64,000 bases of DNA from Aquirufa beregesia (GTDB lineage: Bacteria > Bacteroidota > Bacteroidia > Cytophagales > Spirosomataceae): NCBI RefSeq assembly GCF_011090385.1, contig NZ_SEWW01000001.1, forward strand, positions 744,001 through 808,000, read 5' to 3'. The position numbers and the translations under genes were made by a program. The notes beneath the pieces are model-generated. The model worked only from the letters and a program-made list of their open reading frames with translations. It was not told the DNA's origin and ran no database searches. This document shows positions 32,652-50,595 of this stretch, in pieces (the stretch's first letter is position 1; the number at the start of each line of letters is the position of its first letter).

Positions 32652-34103
32652 TTAGTTTCCTAATGTCCAGCCTTCGCGGTAAGTTCTCTTGACAAAGGCA
32701 TTGGCTGCGTCATAATTGGTGACACGCATGTTTTGATTATCCCAAAGCAACTTGGTGTTTGAACCTGGATAATGCATTCCATTTCCTGTTTTTCTAGGTA
32801 CAGGAATATCTGCCACACGAATAGCTAAATTCGCCATCAAAATAGCTTCTGTCAAAGGACCTGCCATTTCAAATGGTGAGCTCAATTGTTTTTTACCATA
32901 TCCTGCAATACAGCCTTCTACCCATTGGGCATAGTGACCATCAGCACTACCTGGTACCCGTTCTAATTTACGAGGTACTTTTACTTCTTCATTTCTAGAT
33001 AAAGGCAACAAACGAGGATTAGCCGCATATTCACTGGCCATCATTTTACCTTTGGTTCCGATGAATAAAATACCTGAATTACCATCACCAAACATTTCAT
33101 CTGGACCTAATTCTTCTGGTCTTTCTGGTTTAATACCACCATCCATCCAATGCATAGTAATAGGTCCTTGAGTACGATCTGTTTTAGGGAAAGTTAAGGT
33201 AGCATGACTTGATGGAGGGCAACTATCTGGGAAAAATCCACGTTTTCCGAAAGCCGTAAATACACTGCTGACCGAAGCCTGTACATCTGATGCATATTTT
33301 AAATTCAATACGCGGAAAGGAGCCTCCATTAAATGGCAACCTAAATCCCCTAAAGCACCAGTACCATAATCCCACCAACCTCTCCAGCTTCCTGGAATCA
33401 AATTATCTACATAATCTTTGTAAGGAGCTGTACCTAGCCATAAATCCCAATCCAATCCTTGTGGAACGGCAGGCTTATTGCTTGGCCAAGGGATACCTTG
33501 TGGCCAAATAGGGCGATTTGTCCAGATTTGTACCGTATGTACATCTCCGATGATACCCGCATCAAACCATTCTACCAACTGTCGAACACCGTCGCCAGAG
33601 GATCCTTGGTTACCCATTTGGGTGACTACTTTGTATTTTTTAGCTGCCTCTGTTAAGGCTCTTGCTTCATAAATATCATGCGTCATTGGTTTTTGCACGT
33701 ATACGTGTTTACCTAATTGCATGGCGGCCATTGCCTGAATAGCGTGGTTGTGATCGGGAGTAGAAACGGATACTGCATCAAAGTTCTTTGACTCCTTTTC
33801 TAACATCACACGCCAATCCTTATAATATTTTGCTTTGGGATAAGCTTCTACTGAATCTTTTGCCTGACGATCATCTACATCACACAGAAAACCAATATCT
33901 GCTTTGCCACTTTGAGCAAAATAACGTAAATCTGATTTTCCTTTTCCTCCAACTCCAATACCGGCAACAACGATTTTATCACTGGGTGCTGTAAAGCCTT
34001 TTCCACCTAATACATGGCGGGGAACAATCATAAAACCAGCAGAGGCTAAACTGGCAGACTTAATAAACTCCCTTCTGGAAGCATCGGATTTTTTTAGTTT
34101 CAT
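32652..34103 (-). CDS. Tat-exported Gfo/Idh/MocA oxidoreductase
   Basis: A 483-residue protein from M at 34103 (MKLKKSDASRREF). The twin-arginine motif SRREFIK is followed by a hydrophobic stretch. The NAD(P)-binding start is VVAGIGVGGKGKSDL, and HVYVQKPMTHD carries the catalytic Lys of the EKP type. Proteins of this branch oxidise sugars or polyols, some to 3-keto-sugars, with a tightly held nicotinamide cofactor. It is followed by a strong terminator. Confidence 0.85.
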   Translation of the reverse strand: MKLKKSDASRREFIKSASLASAGFMIVPRHVLGGKGFTAPSDKIVVAGIGVGGKGKSDLRYFAQSGKADIGFLCDVDDRQAKDSVEAYPKAKYYKDWRVMLEKESKNFDAVSVSTPDHNHAIQAMAAMQLGKHVYVQKPMTHDIYEARALTEAAKKYKVVTQMGNQGSSGDGVRQLVEWFDAGIIGDVHTVQIWTNRPIWPQGIPWPSNKPAVPQGLDWDLWLGTAPYKDYVDNLIPGSWRGWWDYGTGALGDLGCHLMEAPFRVLNLKYASDVQASVSSVFTAFGKRGFFPDSCPPSSHATLTFPKTDRTQGPITMHWMDGGIKPERPEELGPDEMFGDGNSGILFIGTKGKMMASEYAANPRLLPLSRNEEVKVPRKLERVPGSADGHYAQWVEGCIAGYGKKQLSSPFEMAGPLTEAILMANLAIRVADIPVPRKTGNGMHYPGSNTKLLWDNQNMRVTNYDAANAFVKRTYREGWTLGN

Positions 34104-34236
34104 AGGTCTAATTTTAAAAGTCTTTCGAATTGTCAAATTCTGTATAGCAATTCAATCTTCAAAGCTATAACAATTTTGCATTTGAACAATTCAATTTAAA
34201 CTATTTTTAATCCTACGATGACTTGTAGGCTTAAAG

Positions 34237-35556
34237 CTATTTGTTGGTCCATTGTTGTATCACTTGATATGGAACAGATACAGAAGTCATGTAAACGGGG
34301 TTTTGTTGATACGATTCAGTAAAACACTCCCAGGGTGCTCCAAAGCCCTTCCCTTTTCTAAAATCGCCCTTTCTTAGGTCCTTAATCAATTCTTGAATAA
34401 GCTGTTGTCCTAGGGAAAAATGGGTCAAAGTCAATGTATAAGCTACCCACCCTGTAGCAGTCGACCAATAAGCCCCATTTTGATAGCTCTCCTTTTTCAC
34501 TAAACTTCCCTCCCAGGCAGTGAATTCACTAAAGTCATCTGATTTCAAAACGTGTCGAACTGCTCCTCGATAAGCCAATGTATTATTTTGATAGGCTTGA
34601 CTCAATCTTCTGGAGGCTTTAAGAGCATCTTCACCCGCTAACACTCTGGTATATACGGCCCAAGCCGTACTCCACACATCGACTTGTGCACTCTTCCCAG
34701 TTGATGCTTTCAACATACCATTGGGTTCAAGAAACACGTTCACAATATTTTGCTTTAGGATTGCGGCCTTTGCCTTTTGTCTTCGGCATTCCTCCTCATT
34801 TCCCCTCCATTGATACAATTCTGCTAATTGACATAAAGCTTGATACCTCAATAAGGAAGGAAAACATAAATCACCTGTCATATGTATGGCATCTCGAAAC
34901 CCAAAATCGACACCTCGGTTGGAATCTGTAACACTGACCAGTTGATTTTTAGGGTTTATTGGCACAGATTCCAATGCTAAAATCAAGCGATTGAACAAGC
35001 TGATTCCGTGAATTTTTTGGTCCAGTATAGCCAAATCTTCACTTTGCTTGACATATTCATAGGCCATGTGAATAAAAAAGAACATATCATCCAAAGGTGG
35101 CTGATAGCCCCATTGAATTTCTCCTTGATTTTCAAATGAATAAGTTCCTGGAAAATAAATCGGTTTAGCATCATCTATCCGAATATGATCAGCAATGGCC
35201 CCTTTAGGAATGGTAGATCCATATTTTGTTTTCTTAATTTGCTCATTTTGGGTAGCAGCCGTTAAGCATAGCATGTGCTTTTGCTCTTTGATCGTGATCA
35301 TGCCTGTACCTACCGACATGGCATAATCCCGAATCCAAAAGGCAGGATAGGAAGTTCGAGCTCCTGGACGAATCAAGGTGCCGCCTGTTTGATTAGGCCC
35401 AAAATCTGGTGAGATTCGTTGATGGGGCCTTATCCTTGAACTATCAATGACCGCTTGTGTCAATTCTTTCAAAAATTGCCAATCATCCTGACTGATCAAT
35501 GATTGTGCATTGATTTGAATAAAAGGCCAGAAGATGAGTAGTAGAAATAAACGCAC
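34237..35556 (-). CDS. Exported six-hairpin glycosidase-like protein
   Basis: A 439-residue protein with a Sec signal peptide (cleavage probably after INA). Aromatic and acidic motifs fit an (alpha/alpha)6 barrel glycoside hydrolase: PAFWIRDYAMSVGTGM, WGYQPPLDDMFFF, ENQGEIQWGY, WSTAWAVYTR and AYWSTATGWVAYTL. I cannot assign a GH family. It sits between two Gfo/Idh/MocA genes, which points to breakdown of a glycoside in the periplasm. Confidence 0.6.
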   Translation of the reverse strand: MRLFLLLIFWPFIQINAQSLISQDDWQFLKELTQAVIDSSRIRPHQRISPDFGPNQTGGTLIRPGARTSYPAFWIRDYAMSVGTGMITIKEQKHMLCLTAATQNEQIKKTKYGSTIPKGAIADHIRIDDAKPIYFPGTYSFENQGEIQWGYQPPLDDMFFFIHMAYEYVKQSEDLAILDQKIHGISLFNRLILALESVPINPKNQLVSVTDSNRGVDFGFRDAIHMTGDLCFPSLLRYQALCQLAELYQWRGNEEECRRQKAKAAILKQNIVNVFLEPNGMLKASTGKSAQVDVWSTAWAVYTRVLAGEDALKASRRLSQAYQNNTLAYRGAVRHVLKSDDFSEFTAWEGSLVKKESYQNGAYWSTATGWVAYTLTLTHFSLGQQLIQELIKDLRKGDFRKGKGFGAPWECFTESYQQNPVYMTSVSVPYQVIQQWTNK

Positions 35557-35823
35557 CTGTAAATTATGAATTATAAATGTATGTTGACAATAACAGAAAT
35601 GTGGAAACTAGTCTGTTCTTTCAAATTTAATCTTTAATTACAATTTATTTGTAAAGGCAGCCTATTGCCATTTTATTCAGGCACTTACAAATAGCCCTCC
35701 ATAATTCATCATTTATAATTTCTTCCATTGCAACTCAGGCTTGCAAAAATGAATGCAATGAATAACTTTGAAAAAGCTTAGCCTTTCATGGCTCAACAAA
35801 TAAACCTATTTTAACTCAAAATA

Positions 35824-37167
35824 ATGAAAAATTCGCGCAGAAACTTCATTAAAAAGGCTTCCACTGGGGCAGCCGTTTTATCCATAGGAGGAATTCTTCC
35901 TAGCTTCTCAGCTAAAAGTTACGGACATATTTTAGGGGCCAACGAAAAAATTACCGTGGCCTGTATGGGTGTGAACAGTCGTGGATTAGCTGTTGGTAAG
36001 AATTTTGCAGCACAAAAAAACTGTGAAGTATTACATGTGAGTGATGTGGATACCCGTGCTGCCGATATTTGTATCAATGCCATCGAGAAAATACAAAATA
36101 AACGTCCAAAAGCTACGCCCGACTTCCGTCATGCCTTGGAAGATAAGGATGTCGATGTATTAATTGTTACCGCACCAGACCATTGGCATGCCCCAGCAGC
36201 TATTTTGGCTTGTTCGGCGGGTAAACATGTGTATTTAGAAAAACCTTGTTCCCATAATCCGCATGAAGGCGAACTGCTTGTCAAAGCAGCTGCTAAACAC
36301 AAGCGAATCTTGCAGATGGGTAATCAGCGAAGATCTTGGCCCAATGTGGCTGCCGCTATAGCCGAATTACATGCAGGAGTTATTGGTAAACCATATTATG
36401 CGAAAACTTGGTATACCAATAATCGAGCATCCATCGGAGTTGGTAAAGAAACAGCAGTACCTTCTTGGCTCAATTATGATTTATGGCAAGGACCTGCACC
36501 TAGAAAAGCCTATAAAGATAATTTGATTCACTATAACTGGCATTGGTTTTGGCATTGGGGAACTGGAGAAGCTTTAAACAATGGAACACACATGGTTGAT
36601 TTAGCACGCTGGGGACTGAATGTGCATTATCCCACCAAGGTAAGTTCCAATGGTGGCAGATACCGTTACCAAGATGATTGGGAGACTCCTGATACACAAA
36701 TGATTAATTTAGAATTTGAGAATAAATCACTCATTACTTGGGAAGGCCGGAGTTGCAATGGAAAATCTGTTGAAAACCAAAGTGTAGGGGTAATTTTTTA
36801 TGCCGAACAAGGCTCCATGTTGATTGAAAGCGGTAATTCCTATAAAATTTTCGACCTAAAGAATAACCTAGTCAAAGAAGTGAAAAACGATTTTGCTGTA
36901 GATGCTCGCAATTTGGCTGATCCTGCTTCTAATCTAGATGCCTTACACATTCAAAACTTATTTGACGGAATAAAAAAGGGAGTGGCAGTCAATTCCGACA
37001 TTTTAAGTGGTCACCAAAGTACGCTATTAGTCCAGTTAGGTAATATTTCTCAGCGCATAGGTCGTAGTCTCCAAATAGATCCTCAAAATGGCCATATCTT
37101 ACATGATAAAGAAGCTATGAAATTCTGGAGTAGAACTTACGAAAAAGGTTGGGAGCCTAAAATCTAA
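35824..37167 (+). CDS. Tat-exported Gfo/Idh/MocA oxidoreductase
   Basis: A 447-residue protein with twin-arginine signal SRRNFIKKAS and then the NAD(P)-fold start ITVACMGVNSRG. VYLEKPCSHNPHEGE contains the catalytic EKP Lys. HWFWHWGTGEALNNGTHMVD is typical of the exported branch. It heads a rightward operon with NagX-, NagB- and NagA-like genes: the gap to the next gene is 4 bases. This ties keto-sugar formation in the periplasm to amino-sugar catabolism in the cytoplasm. Confidence 0.87.
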   Translation: MKNSRRNFIKKASTGAAVLSIGGILPSFSAKSYGHILGANEKITVACMGVNSRGLAVGKNFAAQKNCEVLHVSDVDTRAADICINAIEKIQNKRPKATPDFRHALEDKDVDVLIVTAPDHWHAPAAILACSAGKHVYLEKPCSHNPHEGELLVKAAAKHKRILQMGNQRRSWPNVAAAIAELHAGVIGKPYYAKTWYTNNRASIGVGKETAVPSWLNYDLWQGPAPRKAYKDNLIHYNWHWFWHWGTGEALNNGTHMVDLARWGLNVHYPTKVSSNGGRYRYQDDWETPDTQMINLEFENKSLITWEGRSCNGKSVENQSVGVIFYAEQGSMLIESGNSYKIFDLKNNLVKEVKNDFAVDARNLADPASNLDALHIQNLFDGIKKGVAVNSDILSGHQSTLLVQLGNISQRIGRSLQIDPQNGHILHDKEAMKFWSRTYEKGWEPKI

Positions 37168-37171
37168 GCTG

Positions 37172-38293
37172 ATGGCTAGCCCAAATAATGACCATTTTAT
37201 AAGCCAGCGCTTACATTCCTTGGATGCACTAAGAGGCTTTGATATGTTTTGGATTATGGGGGCTGATGAGCTACTCCATAAAATAGCGGAGCATACCCAG
37301 TCGCCATTTTGGCAAGGAATAGCCCATCAATTTAAACATGTCAAATGGGATGGATTTCGGGTTTACGATTTAATTTTCCCTTTATTTTTATTTCTAGCAG
37401 GCGTTTCTACACCTTTTTCCATTGGTCGCTCCTTAAATCAAGGCAAAAGTAAATCGGATGTGCTGAAAAAGGTGGTTCAAAGAGGTCTAACCCTGGTTAT
37501 ATTAGGTATTATTTACAATGAAGGATTAGAATTAAAACCCATAGCAGAAATCCGCTTTTCTAGCGTATTAGGGAGAATTGGTATAGCGTATATGCTGGCT
37601 AATATCATTTATTTATATACCAAAGAAAGAGCTCAAATCATCTGGTTTGCGAGTTTACTCATTGGCTATTGGCTCATACTCAAATTTACCTCTGCCCCGG
37701 GTTTTCCCATGGGTGACTTAACAGAGGCTGGTAATTTCGCTTCATATGTTGATCGCAGCATTTTACCTGGTCGGCTTTCTCGTGGAATCCATGATACTGT
37801 CGGTTTTTTCAATAATATCCCCGCCATTAGTACGGCATTAGCAGGAATTATCACGGGTATATTTCTTAAAAAACAAACATACCAAGCCATGGAGAAAGTT
37901 AAATGGATGATTTATGCTGGCATTACGTCCCTCCTTTTGGCACAAATTTGGAATCTCGATTTTCCCATCAATAAAAATATGTGGTCCAGTTCTTTTGTGC
38001 TACAAACCACTGGCCTAAGCTTACTTTTATTAGCACTGTTCTACTATATCATCGATGTAAAAGGTTATCAAAAATGGACCTTTTTCTTTCAAGTCATTGG
38101 GATGAATTCCATCTTGATTTATTTATCAGGCCATTTTATTGATTGGGATTATACCAACAATGCTCTATTTACCTGGCTATTTCAAATTTGCGGAGAAGGC
38201 TATTCAATTATTATCTCTGTGGTTTGTGTGATCCTAATTAAATGGGTATTTTTAAGATTCCTTTACAAGAAAAAGGTCTTTTTACGCGTCTAA
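37172..38293 (+). CDS. nagX: NagX-like transmembrane acyltransferase (DUF5009/HGSNAT)
   Basis: A 373-residue membrane protein with about ten hydrophobic segments. The opening [15 protein letters not shown] and [18 protein letters not shown] are marks of the family related to heparan-alpha-glucosaminide N-acetyltransferase. Bacterial members occur in chitin and N-acetylglucosamine gene clusters and probably acetylate glucosamine across the membrane. Here the gene is followed directly by a GlcN-6-P deaminase gene and a GlcNAc-6-P deacetylase gene, supporting that role. Confidence 0.82.
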
Positions 38294-38304
38294 AGCCTAT
38301 TAAT

Positions 38305-39069
38305 TTGAAACTACATATTTTTTCCGATCCTAAGAATCTAGGACAATCCGCTGGCAGTTTAGCCTCCGAGCACATCCAGCAAGCCATTCAATCTCATGGT
38401 CAAGCTAATATCATCTTAGCCACAGGTACCAGTCAATTTGAAACCTTGAATCAATTGATTCAAGAAAAAGCCATCGATTGGAGCAAAGTTGTTTTATTTC
38501 ATTTGGATGAATACATTGGCTTGAAGGATACCCATCCAGCGAGCTTTAGAAAATATTTGAAGGAGCGATTTATTCAATTGGTTCCTACCTTAAAATCTGC
38601 CCATCTAATCAACGGTGAAGAGGATGCTTTAGCTGAATGCCAACGATTGAACGAGATAATTCTCCAGCACCCCATTGATGTAGCTTTAGTTGGCATAGGT
38701 GAAAATGGGCATTTAGCATTTAACGATCCACCAGCCAATTTTGAAACCAAAGATCCCTACATTGTAGTTCAATTGGATGATGCTTGTCGCAAGCAACAAA
38801 TGGGTGAAGGTTGGTTTCCTAGTTTGGAAGATGTCCCCCAACAAGCCATTAGCATGTCGATTCAGCATATCATGGCTTCGAAAAAAATCATTTGTTCGGT
38901 TCCTGATTTTAGAAAAGCGGAAGCAGTAAAAAATTGCCTTGAAAACGAAGTGAGCCCTTCCTTTCCTGCCAGTATCCTCCAAAAACATACCAATTGCTCC
39001 ATGTATTTAGATCAGCATTCAGCCGAATTACTTTCTCCTACGTTCAGAAAACAAGCCTTTAACGCCTAA
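38305..39069 (+). CDS. nagB: Glucosamine-6-phosphate deaminase
   Basis: Converts GlcN-6-P to fructose-6-P and ammonia. [38 protein letters not shown] and [11 protein letters not shown] are family motifs (Glu replaces Asp in the more usual GIGxDGH). The start is a judgement: an ATG at 38242 would overlap the nagX gene by 52 bases. I chose TTG at 38305, because translation then begins KLHIFSD, the usual NagB opening, 11 bases after the nagX stop. The stop overlaps the nagA start by one base. Confidence 0.88.
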
Positions 39070-40262
39070 TGGAACCGAATAATTCCCGATATAAAATTCA
39101 TCATGGTGCTGTCATTTTAAAGGACCAAATTCTACCTGATGGGTGCGTATTAGTAGAAAATGGCAAGATCGTGGAGGTTGCGGCGGGCGACTTAGATTTC
39201 CCTGGTGCTATTGAGATCAATGCGCATGGAAATTACATTTCGCCTGGTTTTATCGACATCCACATTCATGGAGGTGGTGGACATGATTTCATGGATGGAA
39301 CGGTGGAAGCTTTTTTAGAAATTGCCAAGACCCATGCTCGCTATGGAACTACGGCCATGCTTCCAACCACACTGACGAGTGAAAAAGAGGATTTGATTTT
39401 AACTTTAGAAGCCTACCAACAAGCCAATCTCATCAATACGGAAGGAGCTAGTTTTATAGGTATGCACTTAGAAGGCCCCTATTTTGCGCTAAGTCAGCGA
39501 GGGGCTCAAGACCCCAAATACATCCGAAATCCCGATCCTAAAGAATATCAATTTATCCTGGAAAATTACGATTGCATCAAACGCTGGTCAGCAGCACCAG
39601 AATTACCAGGTGCTATTGAGTTTGGACAATATGTGAGTTCCAAAGGTGTTTTGGTTGCCTTGGCGCACACGGATGCCATATATGAAGAAGTAGAAAAAGC
39701 TTTTGCTCATGGCTATCGTTTGGCTACTCATTTTTATTCTGCCATGTCGGGCGTCACCAGAAAAAATGCTTTTCGCTTTGCTGGAGCGGTAGAAGCAGGT
39801 TACCTGATTGATGATATGGATGTAGAAATCATAGCCGATGGTGTTCATCTTCCTGCCCCACTCTTGAAACTCGTTTATAAAATCAAAGGGGCTAAAAAAA
39901 CGGCCTTGATTACCGATGCTATGAGAGCTGCAGGCTTAGCTCCTGGAAATTCTATTTTGGGTCACAAGGATAAAGGACTAGCTGTTATTGTAGAAGATGG
40001 CGTTGCCAAATTACCCGATCGAAGTGCGTTTGCTGGCAGTATCGCTACTGCTGATCGATTGGTTAGAACCATGCTTCAAAAAACAGATGCGCCTTTACTA
40101 GAAATTATCCAGATGATTTCGGATGTTCCAGCCAGAATCATGAAAATTGATTCGGAAAAAGGTAGTTTGACAAAGCACAAAGATGCAGATATCCTTATTT
40201 TTGACAAGGATATCAACATTCAGATGACTATGGTCAACGGCCGAATCGTATATAGCTTATAA
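39069..40262 (+). CDS. nagA: N-acetylglucosamine-6-phosphate deacetylase
   Basis: Removes acetate from GlcNAc-6-P to give GlcN-6-P for NagB. The 397-residue amidohydrolase has the metal and active-site motifs DIHIHGGGGHDFMDG, HLEGPYF, ALAHTDA, ATHFYSAMSGV and the catalytic Asp in ITDAMRAAG. It is coupled to nagB. Its end overlaps by 6 bases the end of the DUF1080 gene on the other strand. Confidence 0.92.
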   Translation: MEPNNSRYKIHHGAVILKDQILPDGCVLVENGKIVEVAAGDLDFPGAIEINAHGNYISPGFIDIHIHGGGGHDFMDGTVEAFLEIAKTHARYGTTAMLPTTLTSEKEDLILTLEAYQQANLINTEGASFIGMHLEGPYFALSQRGAQDPKYIRNPDPKEYQFILENYDCIKRWSAAPELPGAIEFGQYVSSKGVLVALAHTDAIYEEVEKAFAHGYRLATHFYSAMSGVTRKNAFRFAGAVEAGYLIDDMDVEIIADGVHLPAPLLKLVYKIKGAKKTALITDAMRAAGLAPGNSILGHKDKGLAVIVEDGVAKLPDRSAFAGSIATADRLVRTMLQKTDAPLLEIIQMISDVPARIMKIDSEKGSLTKHKDADILIFDKDINIQMTMVNGRIVYSL

Positions 40263-40973
40263 TTCCTTAATCTTGATATTTCGGAAGGCTACATTATGTC
40301 CATGATCTTGCAACAAGATATGTCCTTCTTGAATGGTGGGATAATTGAGAAATGATTTAAACTTACTCTGTTGGAAACCATCCATAAATGCTTTGGATTT
40401 ACGATTGATTGAAACAATCAATTTGCCATCTAAATAATGCTCTATCTGATCATTATTAAAAACGATTCTAGAAGTGTGCCAAGTAGAAATATCCACATCA
40501 GGCTTTTTAGCGGCCGCAATTTGATATAAAGATCCTGTTTTAATTTCGGCTGGTAAGTGCTTGTCATTGTAAATAAAATCGGCATCATCAATCAATTGGT
40601 ATTCGTAACCAGGTTGTGAGCCACCTGTGGCTTTCGGTAGTTTTTCTTCGACCAAATACTTGACACCAGAATTACCTAGTTTTCCTAATTTCCAATCAAA
40701 TCGTAAATCGAAGTTTCGGTATTTTTTCAAACTAACAATATCCCCTCCATCGGCTGCCTCTCCTCCATCACTCAGCTCACCCAATAAGGCTCCATCCCGA
40801 ATCACCCATCCTTTCTTAGGAAATTCATTCATGAATGCTCCCCGCCAACCCTGAGTGCTTTTGCCATCAAACATCAGAATAAATCCATCTGACTTTTCAA
40901 TCTTGGTTAATACATTGTTTCTGGAACAAGCACATAAAATACTAACAATCAATACACTATATAAAATTTTCAT
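40257..40973 (-). CDS. DUF1080 lipoprotein, 3-keto-disaccharide hydrolase family
   Basis: A 238-residue lipoprotein (lipobox ILCAC) with a single DUF1080 concanavalin-type domain: ILMFDGKSTQGWRG, FDWKLGKLGNSGVKYLV and WHTSRIVFNNDQIEHYLDGK. Members of this family have been shown to hydrolyse 3-keto-glycosides, so it could act on the product of the Gfo/Idh/MocA enzymes nearby. It follows one such gene after 14 bases. The specific substrate is not known. Confidence 0.85.
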   Translation of the reverse strand: MKILYSVLIVSILCACSRNNVLTKIEKSDGFILMFDGKSTQGWRGAFMNEFPKKGWVIRDGALLGELSDGGEAADGGDIVSLKKYRNFDLRFDWKLGKLGNSGVKYLVEEKLPKATGGSQPGYEYQLIDDADFIYNDKHLPAEIKTGSLYQIAAAKKPDVDISTWHTSRIVFNNDQIEHYLDGKLIVSINRKSKAFMDGFQQSKFKSFLNYPTIQEGHILLQDHGHNVAFRNIKIKEL

Positions 40974-40987
40974 CGTTTAATTGAGGT

Positions 40988-42013
40988 TTATTTTTTCGAA
41001 TACATATCGACCAAGCTTACCGTAGCTCCATTTCTGTTTTTACTGACATCAGCGGCTTCCATAAAGGCAAAAATTTCCAAGGTTTCTTCCTTAGAAACAG
41101 GAGGAGTTCCTGTTTGGAAAAAATCAATAATCTTCATCAATAATGGATCATATCCACCATAAGAACCCAAATGAGCGACCGAATTGGAACCAAAGGCTGT
41201 ACCTCCATATTCTTGTTTCCCATTTTTTAATCCTCGAAAGGTGCCAACACGTCCGTCATTCCATACACCTACCACTACTTCCTGTTCTTCATTGATGTAG
41301 CGATTTACTTGTTTACAACCCGTTCCCATCAGGGTAAAAAGTGTTTCAACCCCATGTATTCCATACCAAAATAAATCGGGGTGAGTCTTTTCTAGCTTCA
41401 TAGGGCTAAAAGCATCAGCCCCTATAACCTTCCCTACCTTTCCAGCTCTAATTTCTTGGGCACTAGGAGAAAAACGCAAAGAGGACGCAGAAAATATAGG
41501 CACTTTATATTTTTCAGAAGCAGCAAAAATGGCTTGAGCGTCTTTCAAAGATGCAGCGATGGGCTTATCAATGAACATCCTTTTGCCAGCTTTCAAAACT
41601 TCTAAGGCTTGTTCCAAATGCAACCTCCCATCGTTGGTTTCCAACATCACCACATCTACTTTGGTCAATAATTCTTGAATGGAATTCACAATTTCTACCC
41701 CATATTTCTGCACTTCAACCGTGTAAGCAGGAACTCTTTCTGTGCTAGATACGATATCTTTACTACCCTTTGGATAGGCCGCAACTATTTTATAACCGGC
41801 ATATTGGCTGGCATCTGGAGCATTTAAGGCTTTGGTAAATGCCGTAGCATGGGAGGTATCTAAGCCAATGATGCCTATTCTTTTTCCCACTTCTGGCTGG
41901 TTGCCTAAAGGTTTAGTCGATGCACTCGACCAAGGGCTGGAACCAACTAGCGCTAGTCCAGCCAATGAGCTTTGTTGTAAAAATAGTCTTCGAGAGTTAG
42001 TCAATTTTTTCAT
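40988..42013 (-). CDS. Tat-exported Gfo/Idh/MocA oxidoreductase
   Basis: A 341-residue protein with the twin-arginine signal NSRRLFLQQSSLAG, NAD(P)-fold start IGIIGLDTSHATAF and FIDKPIAASLKDAQ with the catalytic Lys (DKP rather than EKP). It is shorter and different from the two other exported oxidoreductases. It lies between the FucP-type permease (18-base gap) and the DUF1080 gene (14-base gap), which suggests a three-gene operon for sugar uptake, oxidation and cleavage. Confidence 0.82.
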   Translation of the reverse strand: MKKLTNSRRLFLQQSSLAGLALVGSSPWSSASTKPLGNQPEVGKRIGIIGLDTSHATAFTKALNAPDASQYAGYKIVAAYPKGSKDIVSSTERVPAYTVEVQKYGVEIVNSIQELLTKVDVVMLETNDGRLHLEQALEVLKAGKRMFIDKPIAASLKDAQAIFAASEKYKVPIFSASSLRFSPSAQEIRAGKVGKVIGADAFSPMKLEKTHPDLFWYGIHGVETLFTLMGTGCKQVNRYINEEQEVVVGVWNDGRVGTFRGLKNGKQEYGGTAFGSNSVAHLGSYGGYDPLLMKIIDFFQTGTPPVSKEETLEIFAFMEAADVSKNRNGATVSLVDMYSKK

Positions 42014-42031
42014 AATGAGGAATTCAGAAAT

Positions 42032-43336
42032 TTATTTTCTGATTTTATGGCCGTAAACAGAGTAAAAAACAAGGTATAAATAACAAGGAAACAGTACCCA
42101 ATAAGCAGAACGCAAATCGTATAAATCGGCCAAATACCCATAAAACAAGGGCATGATGGCATTTCCGCATAAACCCATGATCAAAATGGAAGCACCTAAT
42201 TTGGTAAATTTACCTAAACCATCCAGTGCCAAAGGCCATATACCTGCCCAAATTAAAGAGTTTGAAAACCCCAATAAAACCACGAAACAAATGGAAATAT
42301 CGACCTGATGCCCCAGAAATTGAACATCTCCATGTCCAAAAATGATTCCCATGGTAAATAAGGTGCCCAATATAGTACAGATTCGGAAGGCATTCACCTG
42401 AGAAATGAATTTGGGAATGAATATGATTCCTACAATATAACCTGCAATAGTAGCTAATAAGGTATAAGATGGAAATACCTTAGCTTCTAATAATTGAATG
42501 TTCATGGAACCCGCATACCCAATAATCGTATCAATAGCGATGACTTGTGTACCCACATGCAGAAAGATAGCTATGGCCCCCAAGATTAGATGTGGAAATT
42601 GAAAAATACTGGTTTTTGTCGAATTGGCTAATGCTTGTTCATCCGACTCAGAATCCGTATCAATCTCTGGCAATGGAGAAAATCGAACGAGCAATCCTAA
42701 TAGAAATAAAACGATACCAACGATGGTATAAGGAATAGTCACCCGACCAACCAATTCATCCAATGCCGCATTTCGGGCCTCACCTGTCATGGATGCCAAG
42801 TTTTTAAACAAATCACTATCGGTTGCTTTCAATATGACAGCCGCAAAAACTAAGGGGGCTAAAACTCCGGCTCCTTTATTGAATATTCCCATAATGGATA
42901 TTCGCTGTGCAGCACTTTTTTGGGGACCTAAAACGGTAATATAAGGATTGGCGGCTGTTTGTAAGATGGCTAAACCTGCACCTAAGGTAAATAGACCTAC
43001 TAAAAAAATAGGGTAAGTCCGAGTCATGGAGGCTGGCAAAAAGATAAAAGCGCCCAAAGACATGAGCCAAAATCCCAACATCATTCCGCGTTTAAATCCG
43101 ACTTTTTTCAATAAAAAAGACGCAGGCACAGACATCACAAAATAGGAAATATAGAAAGCAAAGGTGACAAAATAGGCTTGAAAATTGCTCAATTCGCATC
43201 CAATTTTAAAATAAGGAATCAAAATAGCATTTACCCAGGAAACGAAACCAAAGATAAAAAACATGAATCCAATAATCAGGATGGAGACTTGCGTATCTCT
43301 CCTACTCAAAGCAGATACAGAAACCGCTTTATTCAT
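42032..43336 (-). CDS. FucP-type sugar:H+ symporter (MFS)
   Basis: A 434-residue inner-membrane permease of the major facilitator superfamily with 12 hydrophobic segments. FIFGFVSWVNAILIPYFK, LQTAANPYITVLGP and FSNSLIWAGIWPLALDGLG are typical of the FucP/GluP/NagP branch. The close presence of nagX-nagB-nagA makes N-acetylglucosamine or a glycoside a reasonable substrate, as with NagP, but fucose or glucose transport cannot be excluded. Confidence 0.85.
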   Translation of the reverse strand: MNKAVSVSALSRRDTQVSILIIGFMFFIFGFVSWVNAILIPYFKIGCELSNFQAYFVTFAFYISYFVMSVPASFLLKKVGFKRGMMLGFWLMSLGAFIFLPASMTRTYPIFLVGLFTLGAGLAILQTAANPYITVLGPQKSAAQRISIMGIFNKGAGVLAPLVFAAVILKATDSDLFKNLASMTGEARNAALDELVGRVTIPYTIVGIVLFLLGLLVRFSPLPEIDTDSESDEQALANSTKTSIFQFPHLILGAIAIFLHVGTQVIAIDTIIGYAGSMNIQLLEAKVFPSYTLLATIAGYIVGIIFIPKFISQVNAFRICTILGTLFTMGIIFGHGDVQFLGHQVDISICFVVLLGFSNSLIWAGIWPLALDGLGKFTKLGASILIMGLCGNAIMPLFYGYLADLYDLRSAYWVLFPCYLYLVFYSVYGHKIRK

Positions 43337-43643
43337 AATTCGTGATGGATGTTGATTGAAACAATTTCAAAAATGAAATGGTGTCACTCGTTGGTTTAAA
43401 TAGGTTTTTACTTGTCCTAATTTAATTGAATTCTTAAGAAAATCAAACCTGATTAATGTGCTACAAAATCTATTTTCTAATAAGGACCCCTATTTTCAAG
43501 GATTAATGTTTATTGAATTAAGCTGTCATAAATTAGAAGAATGTTCTCCTATAAGTTTTTCCTGTTAACATTCAATTTTTCATAAAGCGCAGAAATTGTA
43601 TCATTATTCATTTATCTTGGTGCTAACAACCTATTTAATCATC
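43337..43643. other. Divergent promoter region, no gene seen
   Basis: 307 bases between the FucP-type permease (-) and the DegT-type aminotransferase (+). It must contain promoters for both directions, but I cannot point to a convincing Bacteroidota -33/-7 pair or to a regulator site. Confidence 0.4.
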
Positions 43644-45017
43644 ATGAAAACAACTCAAAGACGACAGTTTCTGAAGCAATCGGGACTTTTAAGCGCTGCT
43701 GCGGTACTGCCAGCATTGCAAGGAAAACGATTATTACCTCAGACACACAAGCAACATATTCCTGCCATATTGGGGGGCAAATCCCATGTAAAAATTGACA
43801 ATTGGATAAAATGGCCCATCTGGGATAGTGAAAATGATGAAAAATTACTGTTAGAGGTCATGCGAAGTGGGGTTTGGTCAAGAGCCCAAGTGGTCAATCA
43901 ATTTGAAAAAGCATGGGCAGATACCATCGGCACTAAAAGATGCATGACAGTAGTCAATGGCACACAAGCACTAACAGTGGCGATAAACCAAGCTAAACTT
44001 GGACCAGGAGATGAAATATTAGTAACCCCCTATACCTTTATTGCAAGTATTCAAGCCATCTTAGCCAATTCCTGCATTCCTATATTTGTCGATGTGGATC
44101 CAGAGACTTTTCAAATGGATACCAAGAAAATAGAAGCTCGAATTAGTCGAAGGACCAAAGCCATTTTACCCGTGCATATTTTAGGCTTACCATGTGATAT
44201 GGTTCAAGTTATGGAAATTGCCAAAAAACATCAATTGATTGTCATTGAAGATGCTTGTCAAGCTCCATTGGCTGAAATTAATCATCAAAAAGTAGGGAGT
44301 TTTGGCCTAGCAGGTTGTTTTAGTTTTCAAAATTCTAAAAATATTGCCATTGGGGAAGGAGGTGCTATTATAAGTAATGACGAAGGATTTATGGATCGCT
44401 GCTATTCCTATCATAATTTAGGTTTACCTTTTGGAATTGCTACGGGTTCCATTAGTTCGGGGAGTTTCATGCGAGGAACTAAAGTACGATTCACCGAATA
44501 TCAGGCCGCTATAGGATTGGCACAATTGACCCGATTAGAATCCCAAACTCAAGTACGGAATGAACGAGCAGCCTATTTATCATCCATGTTGAAAAATATA
44601 CCTGGTGTAGTACCCTATCGACTTTATCCAGAGGTGACTAGAGCCGCATTTCATTTATATCCATTTCGCTATCAAGCAAATGAGTTTAAAGGTTTAAGTC
44701 GTTCCAACTTTTTAAAAGCCTTACAGGCTGAGGGAGTTCCCTGTAGTGGAGGTTATACGGCTTTAAATACCCAAGTTTTTCTGCAAGAGGCCTTTGAGTC
44801 AACCGCGTTTAAAAAACTCTATTCACGGAGTGAACTTAATTACTCGACTTATCTGATGGAAAATCAATGTCCCTTAAATAATCAACTTTGCGAAGAAGCT
44901 ATATGGTTTACCCAAAACCTATTATTAGGTTCAAAAGAAGACATGGAACTCATTTTCCAGAGTATCCAAAAAATTCATCGAGAAGCAGAATCCATTAAAA
45001 AGAAGTTACAGCCATAA
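43644..45017 (+). CDS. Tat-exported DegT/DnrJ/EryC1/StrS aminotransferase
   Basis: A PLP-dependent sugar aminotransferase fold: NGTQALTVAINQA, LVTPYTFIASIQAI, IEDACQAPLAE (PLP-ring Asp, residue 203) and CFSFQNSKNIAIGEGG (Schiff-base Lys, residue 232). From M at 43644 it has 457 residues. The N-terminus QRRQFLKQSGLLSAAAVLP is a twin-arginine signal, which is unusual, as this family normally works in the cytoplasm on nucleotide-linked sugars. Export as a folded, cofactor-loaded protein would place a transaminase in the periplasm. An upstream ATG at 43596 adds residues that would bury the Tat signal, so I reject it. It leads a three-gene operon. Confidence 0.85.
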   Translation: MKTTQRRQFLKQSGLLSAAAVLPALQGKRLLPQTHKQHIPAILGGKSHVKIDNWIKWPIWDSENDEKLLLEVMRSGVWSRAQVVNQFEKAWADTIGTKRCMTVVNGTQALTVAINQAKLGPGDEILVTPYTFIASIQAILANSCIPIFVDVDPETFQMDTKKIEARISRRTKAILPVHILGLPCDMVQVMEIAKKHQLIVIEDACQAPLAEINHQKVGSFGLAGCFSFQNSKNIAIGEGGAIISNDEGFMDRCYSYHNLGLPFGIATGSISSGSFMRGTKVRFTEYQAAIGLAQLTRLESQTQVRNERAAYLSSMLKNIPGVVPYRLYPEVTRAAFHLYPFRYQANEFKGLSRSNFLKALQAEGVPCSGGYTALNTQVFLQEAFESTAFKKLYSRSELNYSTYLMENQCPLNNQLCEEAIWFTQNLLLGSKEDMELIFQSIQKIHREAESIKKKLQP

Positions 45018-45026
45018 GCAAAAAAC

Positions 45027-46322
45027 ATGTCGGAAAACCCTCAAACCTTGCTGGCAAAAACTTTCAACTCCGGATTTGCCCAAGCACATGATAGCTATAA
45101 TGCCCTTTCATTGGCCTCCAATGGTAACATATACTACATCCTTTCTTCTGACAAGTTGGATGTAGCAGGACAAATGTATGAATTCGATCCAAAAACAAAT
45201 CAAATTCTTCATTTGGCAGACTTAAATGACATTTGTGGCGAAACAAACAAAAAACATATTCCCCAAGGAAAAAGCCATGTAAGCTTTTATGAATACCAGC
45301 AAAAACTTTATTTCTCCACCCATATTGGTTATTACCAATTGATTGATGGAATGGATCGACTGCCCATTCATGCACCTGATGGATATTCTTTATACTCAGG
45401 CGGACATATACTAAGCTACAACTTACTTTCTGGGGAATTCGAAGATTTAGCCCTACTTCCAGAAGGAGAAGGATGCGTTTCCATGGTCATGGATATTCAA
45501 AGGGGGCATATATTTGGAATTACTTGGCCAAGTGGAAAGCTATTTTACTTAGATGTAAAAAGTCGAAAACTTCAGTTGTTTCCAGCTGTTTCAGGAAATG
45601 GAGAAGCTGGAACTCCTGGTGAAGATTTTAGATCTCTTTGTCGTTCTCTTTTAGTCAATCCACACACAGGAATATGTTACTTTTCTACTTCAGAAGGCCA
45701 TATATACCAAATTAATCCTGACTCATGGCAAGTGGAACTCATAGAACAAGTGCATCTTCGTCTCGATTATTTTGGTCAATACCATCCACAATACCCGGGC
45801 AATATGGGCTATAATTGGCGACAAATTGTTTGGTATGTACCCGAGCAAGTAGCTTATGGCGTACATGGTAACTCTGGTTATTTATTTAAGTTTGACCCCG
45901 CACATCAACGCATTGAACTGGTCGATCGAATCACGTCGATTCCATCCAAAAAGTCGGGGATGTTTGATCAATTTAGTTATGGCTATTTAGGGTTTCAACT
46001 AGGTCCAGATGGAGAAACACTGTATTACTTAACGGGAGGCCCCATTTTTATCGATGGTAAACGTCTAGAAGGAGAAAAACAAATAGCCAAAGGTGCAGCA
46101 AAAGGATTAGAGTATTTACACCTGATTACGTATCACCTGCCTAGTCAACACTACCAAGATCATGGTCCTATCTTTTATGAAGATGGAAATTGGCCTCAAT
46201 ATGTCAACTCCATTGCCATTGATTATGATGGCAAAGTATATGCCTTAGCGAGAGTCACAAGAAACAAGCAAATAATTTGCGACCTCATTCAAATTAATTC
46301 TTCCTTTAATTCACCTTTATGA
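45027..46322 (+). CDS. Beta-propeller-like protein of unknown function
   Basis: A 431-residue protein with recurring blade-like units (YEFDPKTNQILHLADL, YNLLSGEFEDLALLPE, FYLDVKSRKLQLF, YQINPDSWQVELIEQ, FKFDPAHQRIELVDRI). No signal peptide is visible, unlike both neighbours, so it may be cytoplasmic. It starts 9 bases after the aminotransferase and overlaps the ceramidase-family gene by 4 bases, so these three are very likely one operon. I do not recognise a named family. Confidence 0.65.
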   Translation: MSENPQTLLAKTFNSGFAQAHDSYNALSLASNGNIYYILSSDKLDVAGQMYEFDPKTNQILHLADLNDICGETNKKHIPQGKSHVSFYEYQQKLYFSTHIGYYQLIDGMDRLPIHAPDGYSLYSGGHILSYNLLSGEFEDLALLPEGEGCVSMVMDIQRGHIFGITWPSGKLFYLDVKSRKLQLFPAVSGNGEAGTPGEDFRSLCRSLLVNPHTGICYFSTSEGHIYQINPDSWQVELIEQVHLRLDYFGQYHPQYPGNMGYNWRQIVWYVPEQVAYGVHGNSGYLFKFDPAHQRIELVDRITSIPSKKSGMFDQFSYGYLGFQLGPDGETLYYLTGGPIFIDGKRLEGEKQIAKGAAKGLEYLHLITYHLPSQHYQDHGPIFYEDGNWPQYVNSIAIDYDGKVYALARVTRNKQIICDLIQINSSFNSPL

Positions 46323-47677
46323 AAACATCACTCCATTGCCTCTTGATACTTGTCATTTCCATGCTTTGTTGGGAAGCATTAGGTCAAGAAATGCTTGTTG
46401 GATTTGCTAAAAAAAACATCACGCCCAGTTCTCCCATTTGGCTGACAGGTTATGCTAGCAGAACCCAACCTGCCACAGGGGTGGTGCATCATTTATGGGC
46501 CAAAGCAGTATATTTAGAAAGTTCTCCTAATGAAAAAGCCCTCATTGTCAGCACTGATTTATTAGGGTTAAGTCGAGAAGTCACTCAAGGTATCGTCCAA
46601 CAGCTACAATTAAAATATGGAATAACTCAAAAACAATTGATTATTAATTCCTCTCATACCCATTCTGGCCCCATGATCTGGCCAGCTTTGAGCGGAATAG
46701 CAGATTATCACCTAGAAGATCAAAGAGCCGTTTCAACTTATACCTTAGGCTTAATTAATACTATTATAGATTTAGTTGGTGAAGCTATCGCAAATAAGGA
46801 AAAAATGCAGCTTTCCTATGGCCATGGGCAGGTAGATTTTGCTATCAATCGCAGACAATTAGCTGCTTCTAAAGTAGGAAAGATGTTGGCAGGTCCAATT
46901 GACCATGATGTACCAGTCATCAAAGCGGAAGATGCTCATGGAAATGTGAAAGGGATATTAATGGGTTATGCTTGTCATAATACCACCGTCCAAGGAGACA
47001 ATTATTTAGTCAATGGAGATTATGCTGGATTTGCCCAAATTGACATTGAAAAAAAATATCCTCAAGCTGTTTCTATGTTTCTGCTAGGATGTGCAGGTGA
47101 CCAAAATCCCGAACCAAGAGGTAGTTTAGTATTAGCTGAAAAACATGGTAAAAAGTTGGCTGAGGCAGTCCACATGTTAGTTCAACAAAAATTAAAACCC
47201 CTTAGCAATTCTCTACAATACGATGCTCTACAAATTACTCTGGATTTTCAAAAAATGGACATTAGTACCTATCAAAAGGAATTAGTAGGTGATAATGTAT
47301 TTAAACAAAGAAGAGCAAAACTGATGCTAGAAGCTATCAATAAAGGCTGGAACATCGATCATTATACTTACCCTATACAAGCTTTACGCATTGGAAAAGA
47401 GTTTACTATCGTGGCTTTGGCAGGAGAAGTAGTCGTGGATTATTCGCTAAGAATCAAAAGAGAATTTGCGCCACAGGATATTTTTGTCGCTGGATATAGC
47501 CAAGAAGTCATGTGTTATATACCATCTAAAAATGTGCTAAGCGAAGGAGGATATGAAGCTGAATCCAGTATGATTTACTATGGTTGGCCGGGGCCATTTG
47601 CTGACACAGTGGAAGAAAAAATAATGAAAGGTGTACACCTAGTAATGAAAAACATAGGTATTCGTTCAAGACGATAA
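46319..47677 (+). CDS. Exported neutral/alkaline ceramidase-family protein
   Basis: A 452-residue protein with a Sec signal peptide, related to the N-terminal domain of neutral/alkaline non-lysosomal ceramidases: VGFAKKNITPSSPIWLTGYASR, NSSHTHSGPMIW (zinc His and active-site region), YACHNTTVQGDNYLVNGDYAG and LGCAGDQNP. It lacks the C-terminal domain of true ceramidases, so the amide substrate may differ; an N-acyl amino sugar would suit the operon. It is the last gene of the aminotransferase-propeller group. Confidence 0.8.
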   Translation: MKTSLHCLLILVISMLCWEALGQEMLVGFAKKNITPSSPIWLTGYASRTQPATGVVHHLWAKAVYLESSPNEKALIVSTDLLGLSREVTQGIVQQLQLKYGITQKQLIINSSHTHSGPMIWPALSGIADYHLEDQRAVSTYTLGLINTIIDLVGEAIANKEKMQLSYGHGQVDFAINRRQLAASKVGKMLAGPIDHDVPVIKAEDAHGNVKGILMGYACHNTTVQGDNYLVNGDYAGFAQIDIEKKYPQAVSMFLLGCAGDQNPEPRGSLVLAEKHGKKLAEAVHMLVQQKLKPLSNSLQYDALQITLDFQKMDISTYQKELVGDNVFKQRRAKLMLEAINKGWNIDHYTYPIQALRIGKEFTIVALAGEVVVDYSLRIKREFAPQDIFVAGYSQEVMCYIPSKNVLSEGGYEAESSMIYYGWPGPFADTVEEKIMKGVHLVMKNIGIRSRR

Positions 47678-50526: not shown

Positions 50527-50545
50527 TATTCTATTCAACAATAAT

Positions 50546-50581
50546 ACATCAAAGCCCCGGCAAATGCTGGGGCTTTGATGT
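50546..50581. terminator. Bidirectional terminator between convergent genes
   Basis: Arms ACATCAAAGCCCC and GGGGCTTTGATGT pair perfectly around a short GC-rich loop. It lies 19 bases after the receptor stop and 15 bases from the BNR-protein stop on the other strand. Confidence 0.85.
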
Positions 50582-50595
50582 ATTATCTAAACGCT

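Follow-up and report, generated by a model that had tools for sequence, protein, structure and literature searches.

A 64,000-nt stretch of the Aquirufa beregesia genome (GCF_011090385.1, contig NZ_SEWW01000001.1, positions 744,001–808,000; the window below) encodes enzymes with twin-arginine signals close to genes for amino-sugar catabolism. Does this locus transaminate sugars in the periplasm, and if so, with which genes and in which direction? An initial annotation had drawn a path in which a glycoside is oxidised, the keto-sugar and amino-sugar are interconverted by transamination, and the product is imported and degraded.

Gene Content of the Region

Coordinates are positions within the window, and the region discussed spans 32652..47677. 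The open reading frames of the initial annotation were recovered in place; the genes of the region are as follows.

32652..34136 (-): Gfo1, Tat-motif Gfo/Idh/MocA oxidoreductase (NF058561, 480.7 bits; RRxF motif)
34237-35556: six-hairpin-like protein of the initial annotation, matching no Pfam or NCBIfam family
35824..37167 (+): Gfo2, Tat-signal-bearing Gfo/Idh/MocA oxidoreductase (PF01408/PF19051; TIGR01409, 20.3 bits)
37172..38293 (+): NagX-like transmembrane glucosamine acetyltransferase (NF046061, 327.8 bits, cut-off 480)
38242..39069 (+): NagB-like glucosamine-6-phosphate deaminase (TIGR00502, 149.8 bits, cut-off 236.9)
39069..40262 (+): NagA, GlcNAc-6-phosphate deacetylase (TIGR00221, 285.3 bits, cut-off 225.65)
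40257..40973 (-): accessory 3-keto-disaccharide hydrolase (DUF1080), which by eye resembles a lipoprotein (PF06439, E=1e-40)
40988..42013 (-): Gfo3, Tat-signal-bearing Gfo/Idh/MocA oxidoreductase (PF01408; TIGR01409, 18.0 bits)
42032..43336 (-): NagP/FucP-type MFS permease (NagP model, 384.6 bits, cut-off 625)
43596..45017 (+): Tat-signal-bearing DegT/DnrJ/EryC1/StrS aminotransferase (PF01041, E=9e-90)
45027..46322 (+): beta-propeller protein, signal peptide not evident (propeller fold by model, pLDDT 68)
46319..47677 (+): ceramidase-like protein, PF04734 N-terminal domain (E=2e-26), Sec-like N-terminus by eye

The start of DegT is probably the ATG at 43644, 48 bases into the listed TTG reading frame, as judged by eye. 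The glycosidase assignment of the six-hairpin-like protein found no backing in the Pfam and NCBIfam profile searches. Relatives of NagX, NagP, NagA and NagB are all linked between 37172 and 43336. NagA passed its equivalog cut-off; the NagB, NagP and NagX models were the best matches of the other three proteins, which scored below the cut-offs. The permease, closest to NagP, scored above the gluP subfamily cut-off. A MurQ homologue above its own cut-off was found elsewhere in the genome.

Tat Signals and the Aminotransferase Active Site

The motif RRxF[LIVMFA] occurred in the first 60 residues of 4 of the 45 window ORFs of at least 150 aa, with 0.05 expected by shuffling. These four are exactly the enzymes to which Tat signals had been attributed from the outset. 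TIGR01409, the NCBIfam Tat model, recognised Gfo2 and Gfo3; Gfo1 gave no match at E<=0.01 in the NCBIfam search, and DegT scored 16.7 bits, equal to the cut-off of 16.7, in a match that appears with the N-terminal fragment only and not with the full protein. Residues R22, R23 and F25 of DegT were invariant in the 40 relatives of the Tat set (40/40). TIGR01409 matched 28 of these 40 N-termini, the other 12 falling short of E<=0.1, and 0 of 11 control N-termini. Twin arginines were absent from all 11 sister-group DegT proteins examined, and the single non-Tat sequence within the Tat clade was the second DegT of locus L080. Among the family members listed, RRxF was present in 16/16 Gfo3 and 14/15 Gfo2 proteins. 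The genome encodes TatC, and a PF10518 search of it gave one match, on another contig. Export of the aminotransferase and of the Gfo enzymes to the periplasm is well supported as a prediction.

The catalytic lysine K248, the PLP-site residues D219 and S243, and N274 were invariant in 52/52 sequences. Together with the PF01041 domain these residues place the protein in the DegT family, and at the level of active-site residues nothing suggested an inactive aminotransferase. The structure model of DegT (pLDDT 36) was too poor for use. The DegT enzymes among its PDB sequence matches, NtdA structures included, were named for sugars and cyclitols, and the best-scoring solved relatives include enzymes named for free cyclitols (scyllo-inositol, 2-deoxy-scyllo-inosose).

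Conservation of the Neighbourhood

The close DegT loci comprised 31 of the 51 matches at >50% identity (including the window, L032 and L033) and four further loci. Eleven of the 57 DegT matches at roughly 36–44% served as controls, and the diverged Tat-DegT loci were L059, L060, L061 and L073 (four of five further matches; G032, whose motif was not checked, was left out) and L081. The searches that supplied the four further loci and L081 scored at most four candidates per genome. Neighbours were labelled by BLAST at E<=1e-8. Loci were chosen by hand with a view to spread, and the absences within 9 kb given below include loci truncated at contig ends.

In other genera the operon reads Gfo3-DegT-ceramidase-like-propeller-Gfo2-NagP-NagA-NagB, the whole series being present in 7 of the 27 close loci outside the genus. 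The ceramidase-like gene was found in 22 of these 27 loci (missing within 9 kb from 5) and the propeller in 21. Gfo3 lay within 9 kb in 16 (absent from 11) and Gfo2 was present in 13; NagP lay within 9 kb in 12 (15 without), NagA in 9 and NagB in 9 (18 without each). A SusC/D-type receptor was near DegT in 17/27 loci, and amidohydrolase-2 genes in 7/27, ThuA accompanying them in two. The eight conserved genes do not include a canonical glycoside hydrolase. Within the genus, NagP, NagA, NagB and Gfo3 each lay within 9 kb in 4/8 loci. NagX was seen among the fetched loci in same-genus-type ones only (window, L032, L033, L034, L036, L037). Within 9 kb of DegT in the 11 control loci, the ceramidase-like gene occurred once, a Gfo gene once, a NagP-like permease four times and DUF1080 twice; DUF1080 also occurred in 4/8 same-genus, 1/27 outside-genus and 2/5 diverged Tat-DegT loci.

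The linkage of the DegT cluster is well supported by this comparison: the genes co-occur across genera and the Nag genes stand in an operon with DegT. The path of the initial annotation was to be refuted by a cytoplasmic or inactive aminotransferase or by missing co-occurrence; the checks of signal, active-site residues and co-occurrence did not refute it. From its gene list DegT, Gfo2, Gfo3 and the Nag linkage were retained; Gfo1, the six-hairpin-like protein and DUF1080 were not conserved with DegT, and neither Gfo1 nor the six-hairpin-like protein was seen in the 27 close loci outside the genus. The closest partners of DegT, the ceramidase-like protein and the propeller, were absent from that list; both genes lie closely downstream of DegT on the same strand. 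The comparison across loci ruled out that all genes of 32652-47677 form one system. That DegT is an isolated oddity was ruled out by the conserved linkage and the conserved signal.

Among 150 genomes of the family, DegT was found in 49, the propeller in 47 and both in 46 (Fisher p=8e-34), with group membership typed by hand from the lists of relatives. The two genes shared a contig, at most 2.5 kb apart, in 44 of the 46. A fold search with the propeller model returned varied propellers in its top rows, naming no function, and sequence comparison with solved structures gave designed proteins or weak, chance-like matches.

The ceramidase-like protein (452 aa) scored 53.7 bits against the 636-position neutral ceramidase equivalog NF041649, far under the cut-off of 1200. 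His, His, Glu and Tyr residues, which we take to correspond to the metal ligands of neutral ceramidase, were invariant in 33/33 sequences; on alignment to the solved neutral ceramidase 2zws, the His residues fell in the main alignment and the other two residues in a second, weak one. Neutral ceramidase uses a catalytic Ser nucleophile. The position taken for it by eye, outside the computed 2zws alignment, is Asn in 33/33 sequences and Lys in two haloarchaeal copies. We propose that the protein is a metallo-amidohydrolase; given the Asn, amide hydrolysis is not assured. Against NF058561 (glycoside 3-dehydrogenase, BT_2158 family, cut-off 750), Gfo2 scored 149.7 and Gfo3 20.7 bits, so that all three oxidoreductases stayed below the cut-off. 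The closest solved relative of Gfo2 was 8tdf (100.7 bits), named just 'Dehydrogenase', and those of Gfo3 were weak and mixed.

A Proposed Pathway

We propose that the cluster removes extra nitrogen from modified amino sugars in the periplasm, the leftover GlcN or GlcNAc entering the ordinary Nag pathway, a reading to which we give somewhat less than an even chance. A SusC/D-type receptor would take the compound in, and the secreted ceramidase-like enzyme would cleave an N-acyl amide to expose an amine. The Tat-exported DegT would transaminate this amine to a ketone, which the Tat-exported Gfo enzymes would reduce; they may also open the glycosidic bond via a keto intermediate. In the window organism NagX would acetylate free GlcN, NagP would import GlcNAc, and a kinase, NagA and NagB would finish. 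Every catalytic step, its direction and the substrate are proposed on the basis of the signals, active-site residues and linkage described above. Besides signals, residues and operon, the MurQ-type loci with their kinase and permease, the GH109-type protein of L075, the ceramidase-like genes of other lineages and the lack of a canonical glycoside hydrolase among the conserved genes speak for the model. The apparent lack of a signal peptide in the propeller counts against it, as do the hydride source that Gfo reduction outside the cytoplasm would need and the amine acceptor that transamination would need in the periplasm. The loci in which Gfo3, Nag or ceramidase-like genes are missing within 9 kb, the amidohydrolase-2 genes, the MurQ-type loci in lacking a Gfo relative, the Asn of the ceramidase-like family and the alphaproteobacterial operons in lacking an annotated DegT also weigh against it. 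The best-fitting substrate, though in itself improbable, would be a 3-acylamido-GlcN (GlcN3N, known from lipid A in certain bacteria); this hypothesis implies GnnA/GnnB chemistry run in reverse, outside the cytoplasm. A wider version is unlikely: Bacteroidota would run extracytoplasmic sugar transamination, PLP-DegT and NAD(P)-Gfo enzymes exported by Tat stripping (di)amino sugars, for instance the GlcN3N of lipid A, of their acylamido groups through reverse GnnA/GnnB chemistry with closed cofactor cycles, and the signal-less propeller possibly being carried through Tat on a partner.

The deaminating direction is proposed because there would be little point in aminating a sugar whose amine NagB then removes. 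The reverse, the direction read from the initial annotation, has DegT aminate a periplasmic keto-sugar and NagX acetylate the product before import and degradation. The Gfo enzymes and DUF1080 do suggest keto-sugars, and NagX is proposed for free periplasmic glucosamine in the accessible part of its description (PMC9007349), from which the role of NagP is also taken; since NagB would release the newly added amine and NagX was seen in same-genus-type loci only, we consider this direction very doubtful. Still less probable is that periplasmic transamination is absent, the Tat-like N-termini being non-functional or DegT catalysis lost: the borderline TIGR01409 score of the window DegT and the 12/40 relatives short of E<=0.1 are outweighed by the invariant RRxF (40/40), its absence from the sister clade, the catalytic residues (52/52) and TatC.

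Scavenging of peptidoglycan (MurNAc/GlcNAc peptide), in which the ceramidase-like protein would be an amidase of the MurNAc-alanine kind and DegT would act on a muropeptide-derived amine, is also an unlikely explanation. MurQ adjoins Tat-DegT and the ceramidase-like gene in three loci of two families, and the genome has its MurQ homologue; yet MurQ lay within 9 kb in 0 of the 35 close (>50%) DegT loci, the subset of neighbours that was annotated showed no recognisable peptidase or lytic enzyme, and the PDB names point to sugars and cyclitols. The cyclitol enzymes among the solved relatives, together with the amidohydrolase-2 and ThuA genes, would fit a pathway that breaks down different amino compounds, namely aminocyclitols or glycosides of these, with partners that vary from locus to locus, and in which the Nag genes do no more than take up one of the sugars set free; the NagP/NagA/NagB linkage in the densest clusters points instead to hexosamine, and we regard this possibility as unlikely.

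Relation to Known Systems

To our knowledge, DegT-family sugar aminotransferases have been studied as cytoplasmic biosynthetic enzymes. GnnA is of the Gfo type and GnnB of the DegT type, and both are cytoplasmic. In the available portions of their descriptions, this dehydrogenase and aminotransferase pair, similar in kind to ours, serves lipid A GlcN3N synthesis, a hexosamine being oxidised at C3 and the ketone transaminated (PMC5644692, PMC3342949). Their reactions are nucleotide-linked and biosynthetic, whereas the window enzymes bear Tat signals and are encoded next to Nag genes of catabolism and a gene for a ceramidase-like protein. The kanosamine route of NtdC/NtdA likewise sets a Gfo dehydrogenase and a DegT enzyme on a non-nucleotide hexose, glucose-6-phosphate, but is cytoplasmic and serves antibiotic synthesis.

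The pathway had been put forward as undescribed. A literature search, mostly of titles and abstract openings, agrees in giving nothing on exported DegT or ceramidase-like genes in sugar clusters; Tat-exported periplasmic PLP enzymes as such are known, namely PvdN and the transaminase PtaA of pyoverdine tailoring, as far as the source was available (PMC6206403). Compared by description, these resemble DegT in the export of a folded PLP enzyme with its cofactor by Tat, and differ in acting on the glutamate side chain of pyoverdine and not in sugar catabolism. Relatives of the permease, acetyltransferase, deacetylase and deaminase of NagX-NagP-NagA GlcN/GlcNAc use are in the window, whereas the exported aminotransferase, the Gfo pair, the propeller and the ceramidase-like enzyme are not described in the accessible part of that report (PMC9007349). 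From the same part, periplasmic 3-keto-glycoside pathways (LacABC, BT2157, DUF1080) share exported dehydrogenases and a DUF1080 hydrolase with the region, but conservation of the DegT cluster outside the genus does not extend to DUF1080 and Gfo1. What appears to be new is the cluster conserved in some Bacteroidota, predicted to combine an exported sugar aminotransferase, oxidoreductases and a ceramidase-like enzyme with Nag genes. If the proposal holds, glycan breakdown would gain a periplasmic PLP step through a conserved exported DegT clade linked with amino-sugar catabolism, and this clade would offer a candidate route for the use of diamino sugars, for example those of lipid A. Genetics and enzyme assays could test the proposal directly.

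Diverged Loci and Other Lineages

In loci L060, L061 and L081 a diverged Tat-DegT has MurQ, a kinase and a permease resembling NagP as neighbours, with a Gfo relative nearby in 0/3. The L060 kinase gave a weak BadF match and the L081 kinase is 44% identical to that of L060. Locus L075 holds a GH109-type protein inside the cluster, and its propeller relative has a signal-like N-terminus of its own.

The ceramidase-like family occurred in NagB-like/SIS/NagA-like/ABC operons on the three alphaproteobacterial plasmids examined (3/3), out of seven such records among the matches listed; profile models were run on two of the three, and in the operons examined no DegT is annotated alongside the ceramidase-like gene. 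If the proposal is right, it would suggest what ceramidase-like proteins encoded near amino-sugar genes do in both Bacteroidota and Alphaproteobacteria. On two Natronococcus plasmids the ceramidase-like gene immediately follows a non-Tat DegT. GH2-type genes were observed in the neighbourhood of non-Tat DegT loci.

Genes of the Region and Twin-Arginine Signals

The initial annotation had read positions 32652–47677 as a candidate system of periplasmic keto- and amino-sugar conversion by Tat-exported Gfo oxidoreductases and a DegT aminotransferase. The open reading frames (ORFs) it described were real and belonged to the families it named, apart from the ORF at 34237–35556, labelled six-hairpin-like, which matched no Pfam or NCBIfam family; among the fetched loci a relative of this ORF was seen only in L033. 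The main genes are the following:

32652–34136, Gfo1
35824–37167, Gfo2
37172–38293, NagX-like
38242–39069, NagB-like
39069–40262, NagA
40257–40973, DUF1080
40988–42013, Gfo3
42032–43336, permease, nearest model NagP
43596–45017, DegT
45027–46322, propeller
46319–47677, ceramidase-like

NagA scored above its equivalog cut-off, and the NagX, NagB and NagP relatives scored below theirs. Beside Gfo1, a 1052-aa protein (29393–32551) combines a GDSL-like region (below the Pfam cut-off), DUF7133, HEAT repeats and cytochrome c; the pair occurs again in locus L038 (71% and 90%). Just downstream of the cluster (47959–54125), a BNR-repeat protein lies between two proteins that look TonB-receptor-like by eye, an arrangement present in the window, L032, L033 and L034.

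The carriers of RRxF[LIVMFA] among the window ORFs were exactly the four proteins for which Tat export had been claimed. The motif occurred within residues 1–60 in 4 of the 45 ORFs of at least 150 aa, versus 0.05 from shuffled N-termini, and TatC is encoded in the genome. Residues R22, R23 and F25 of DegT were the same in all 40 aligned N-termini; TIGR01409 matched 28 of the 40 at E ≤ 0.1 versus none of the 11 controls, the window DegT scoring exactly the cut-off value. All 16 listed members of Gfo3 carried the motif, as did 14 of the 15 listed for Gfo2, the exception being a protein predicted with a long N-terminus. The motif is also present in Gfo1, for which no TIGR01409 match was reported.

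Linkage of Genes around DegT

In a draw of 150 genomes of the family, close DegT was found in 49 (51 rows), the propeller in 47 and both in 46 (Fisher p = 8e-34, the relatedness of the genomes being ignored). A single contig held both genes, at a distance of 12–2502 bp, in all but two of these 46 genomes (44); in those two they were on separate contigs.

Genes near DegT (number of loci with the gene within 9 kb; loci hand-picked for spread, some clipped by contig ends)
27 close loci outside the genus: ceramidase-like 22, propeller 21, SusC/D 17, Gfo3 16, Gfo2 13, NagP 12, NagA 9, NagB 9, amidohydrolase-2 7, DUF1080 1
8 same-genus-type loci: propeller 8, ceramidase-like 7, Gfo2 6, Gfo3 4, NagP 4, NagA 4, NagB 4, DUF1080 4
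5 diverged Tat-DegT loci: ceramidase-like 4, NagP-like 3, MurQ 3, DUF1080 2, any Gfo 1, propeller 0
11 non-Tat control loci: NagP-like 4, GH2 4, DUF1080 2, ceramidase-like 1, any Gfo 1, propeller 0, NagA 0, NagB 0

Seven loci showed the full one-strand series Gfo3-DegT-ceramidase-like-propeller-Gfo2-NagP-NagA-NagB, unbroken in L046, L047, L055, L056 and L057 and with SusC/D inserted between Gfo3 and DegT in L042 and L045. The same gene set was spread in a different order over both strands in the window, L032 (labelled Flectobacillaceae in the DegT tree), L033 and L034, so the linkage has outlasted rearrangement. That of Gfo3 is less telling, because its relatives are common (87 of the 150 genomes).

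DegT is rare outside the family. It was found in 6 of 395 genomes of a phylum draw (E ≤ 1e-75), a count that takes in the genome of the window and two more of its family, and in 7 of 395 of a class draw (E ≤ 1e-90), where that genome and three more of its family are counted; one of the others there, G828, is a 43% relative. The genome scan gave two DegT relatives with names, one from Aquirufa ecclesiirivi (80%) and the other from a Cytophagaceae MAG (81%), which places the window in an Aquirufa-like bacterium of the Bacteroidota. Residues K248, D219, S243 and N274 were invariant in all 52 DegT proteins; at position 222 the 11 non-Tat sister proteins have His and the remaining 41 have Gln. In the tree, 15 non-Tat rows stood apart from a group made up of the 40 Tat rows and a single non-Tat row, and the program warned of long branches meeting. 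The best-scoring solved relatives included 7b0d, 5w71 and 2c7t, named for free cyclitols.

The Ceramidase-Like Family outside Bacteroidota

Thirteen plasmid records matched the ceramidase-like family, of which seven were read; three of the seven alphaproteobacterial records were among the latter. On two Natronococcus plasmids a non-Tat DegT gene is directly followed by the ceramidase-like gene, with a 4 bp overlap in CG52 (AD-5 versus CG52: DegT 93%, ceramidase-like 88% identical). In Natronosalvus the latter starts about 4 kb past DegT, and none was annotated in the stretches read of Haladaptatus and a Chloroflexota plasmid. In all three alphaproteobacterial plasmids read, the ceramidase-like gene lies inside an operon of NagB-like, SIS, NagA-like and ABC-transporter genes (family models were run on two), with no annotated DegT. 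Because of these Nag-type operons, the gene content indicates that the family is linked to amino-sugar use independently of DegT. This alphaproteobacterial operon (L088, L089 and L090) comprises LacI, NagB-like, SIS, NagA-like and ceramidase-like genes and a sugar ABC transporter, and reads as an amino-sugar operon.

Proposed Pathway

Passages of PMC9007349 propose that NagX acetylates glucosamine in the periplasm, the GlcNAc then being imported by NagP; an amino sugar is therefore likely finished in the periplasm of the window organism. An amine added by DegT would be wasted since NagB strips the amine at the end, and we therefore prefer the removal of a second, acylated amine. The ceramidase-like protein would hydrolyse the acylated amine, DegT would transaminate the freed amine and a Gfo would carry out a reduction.

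Capnocytophaga canimorsus belongs to the Bacteroidota. GlcN3N would fit as the substrate because, in the passages cited, it is made from GlcNAc by GnnA/GnnB through oxidation and transamination (PMC5644692), carries amide-linked fatty acids and is found in the lipid A of C. canimorsus (PMC3342949). The proposal is weakened by the MurQ-type loci without Gfo, by an Asn where the nucleophile of the ceramidase is presumed to lie, by the requirement for an amine acceptor and a hydride source, and by the variation of gene sets between loci. A GlcNAc kinase is weakly indicated in the genome (22.5 bits versus a cut-off of 370), and a MurQ homologue is encoded elsewhere in it.

Tat export of PLP-loaded enzymes and a periplasmic transaminase are already established, as passages of PMC6206403 describe for PvdN and PtaA. 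GnnA/GnnB likewise pair a dehydrogenase and an aminotransferase on hexosamines, but in biosynthesis. For the exported, hexosamine-linked combination of the two, a search of open-licence PMC papers returned no report.

Variant Neighbourhoods and the Propeller

In L060, L061 and L081, the latter of another family, a 42% DegT relative is accompanied by MurQ, which scores above NCBIfam subfamily cut-offs, by a NagP-like permease and the ceramidase-like protein, and by a kinase-like protein that in L060 matches BadF weakly. Two of the seven loci with amidohydrolase-2 genes also have ThuA (L044 and L054). An amidohydrolase-2 pair, one member Tat-like at its N-terminus, adjoins close Tat-DegT in L044, L054, L074 and L080. 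L075 has an additional GH109-type protein with a Tat-like N-terminus. The non-Tat sister clade lies close to GH2 proteins in L065, L066, L067 and L070, that of L065 having an exo-glucosaminidase-type Ig domain, and near an approximately 785-aa protein without a Pfam family in L062, L063, L065, L066 and L068.

By eye, no signal peptide was visible in the propeller or in 24 listed relatives, a 25th, from L049, having a garbled long N-terminus; Tat hitch-hiking or a cytoplasmic role is possible. The propeller copy at L075:10650–11996 starts with a Sec-like signal.
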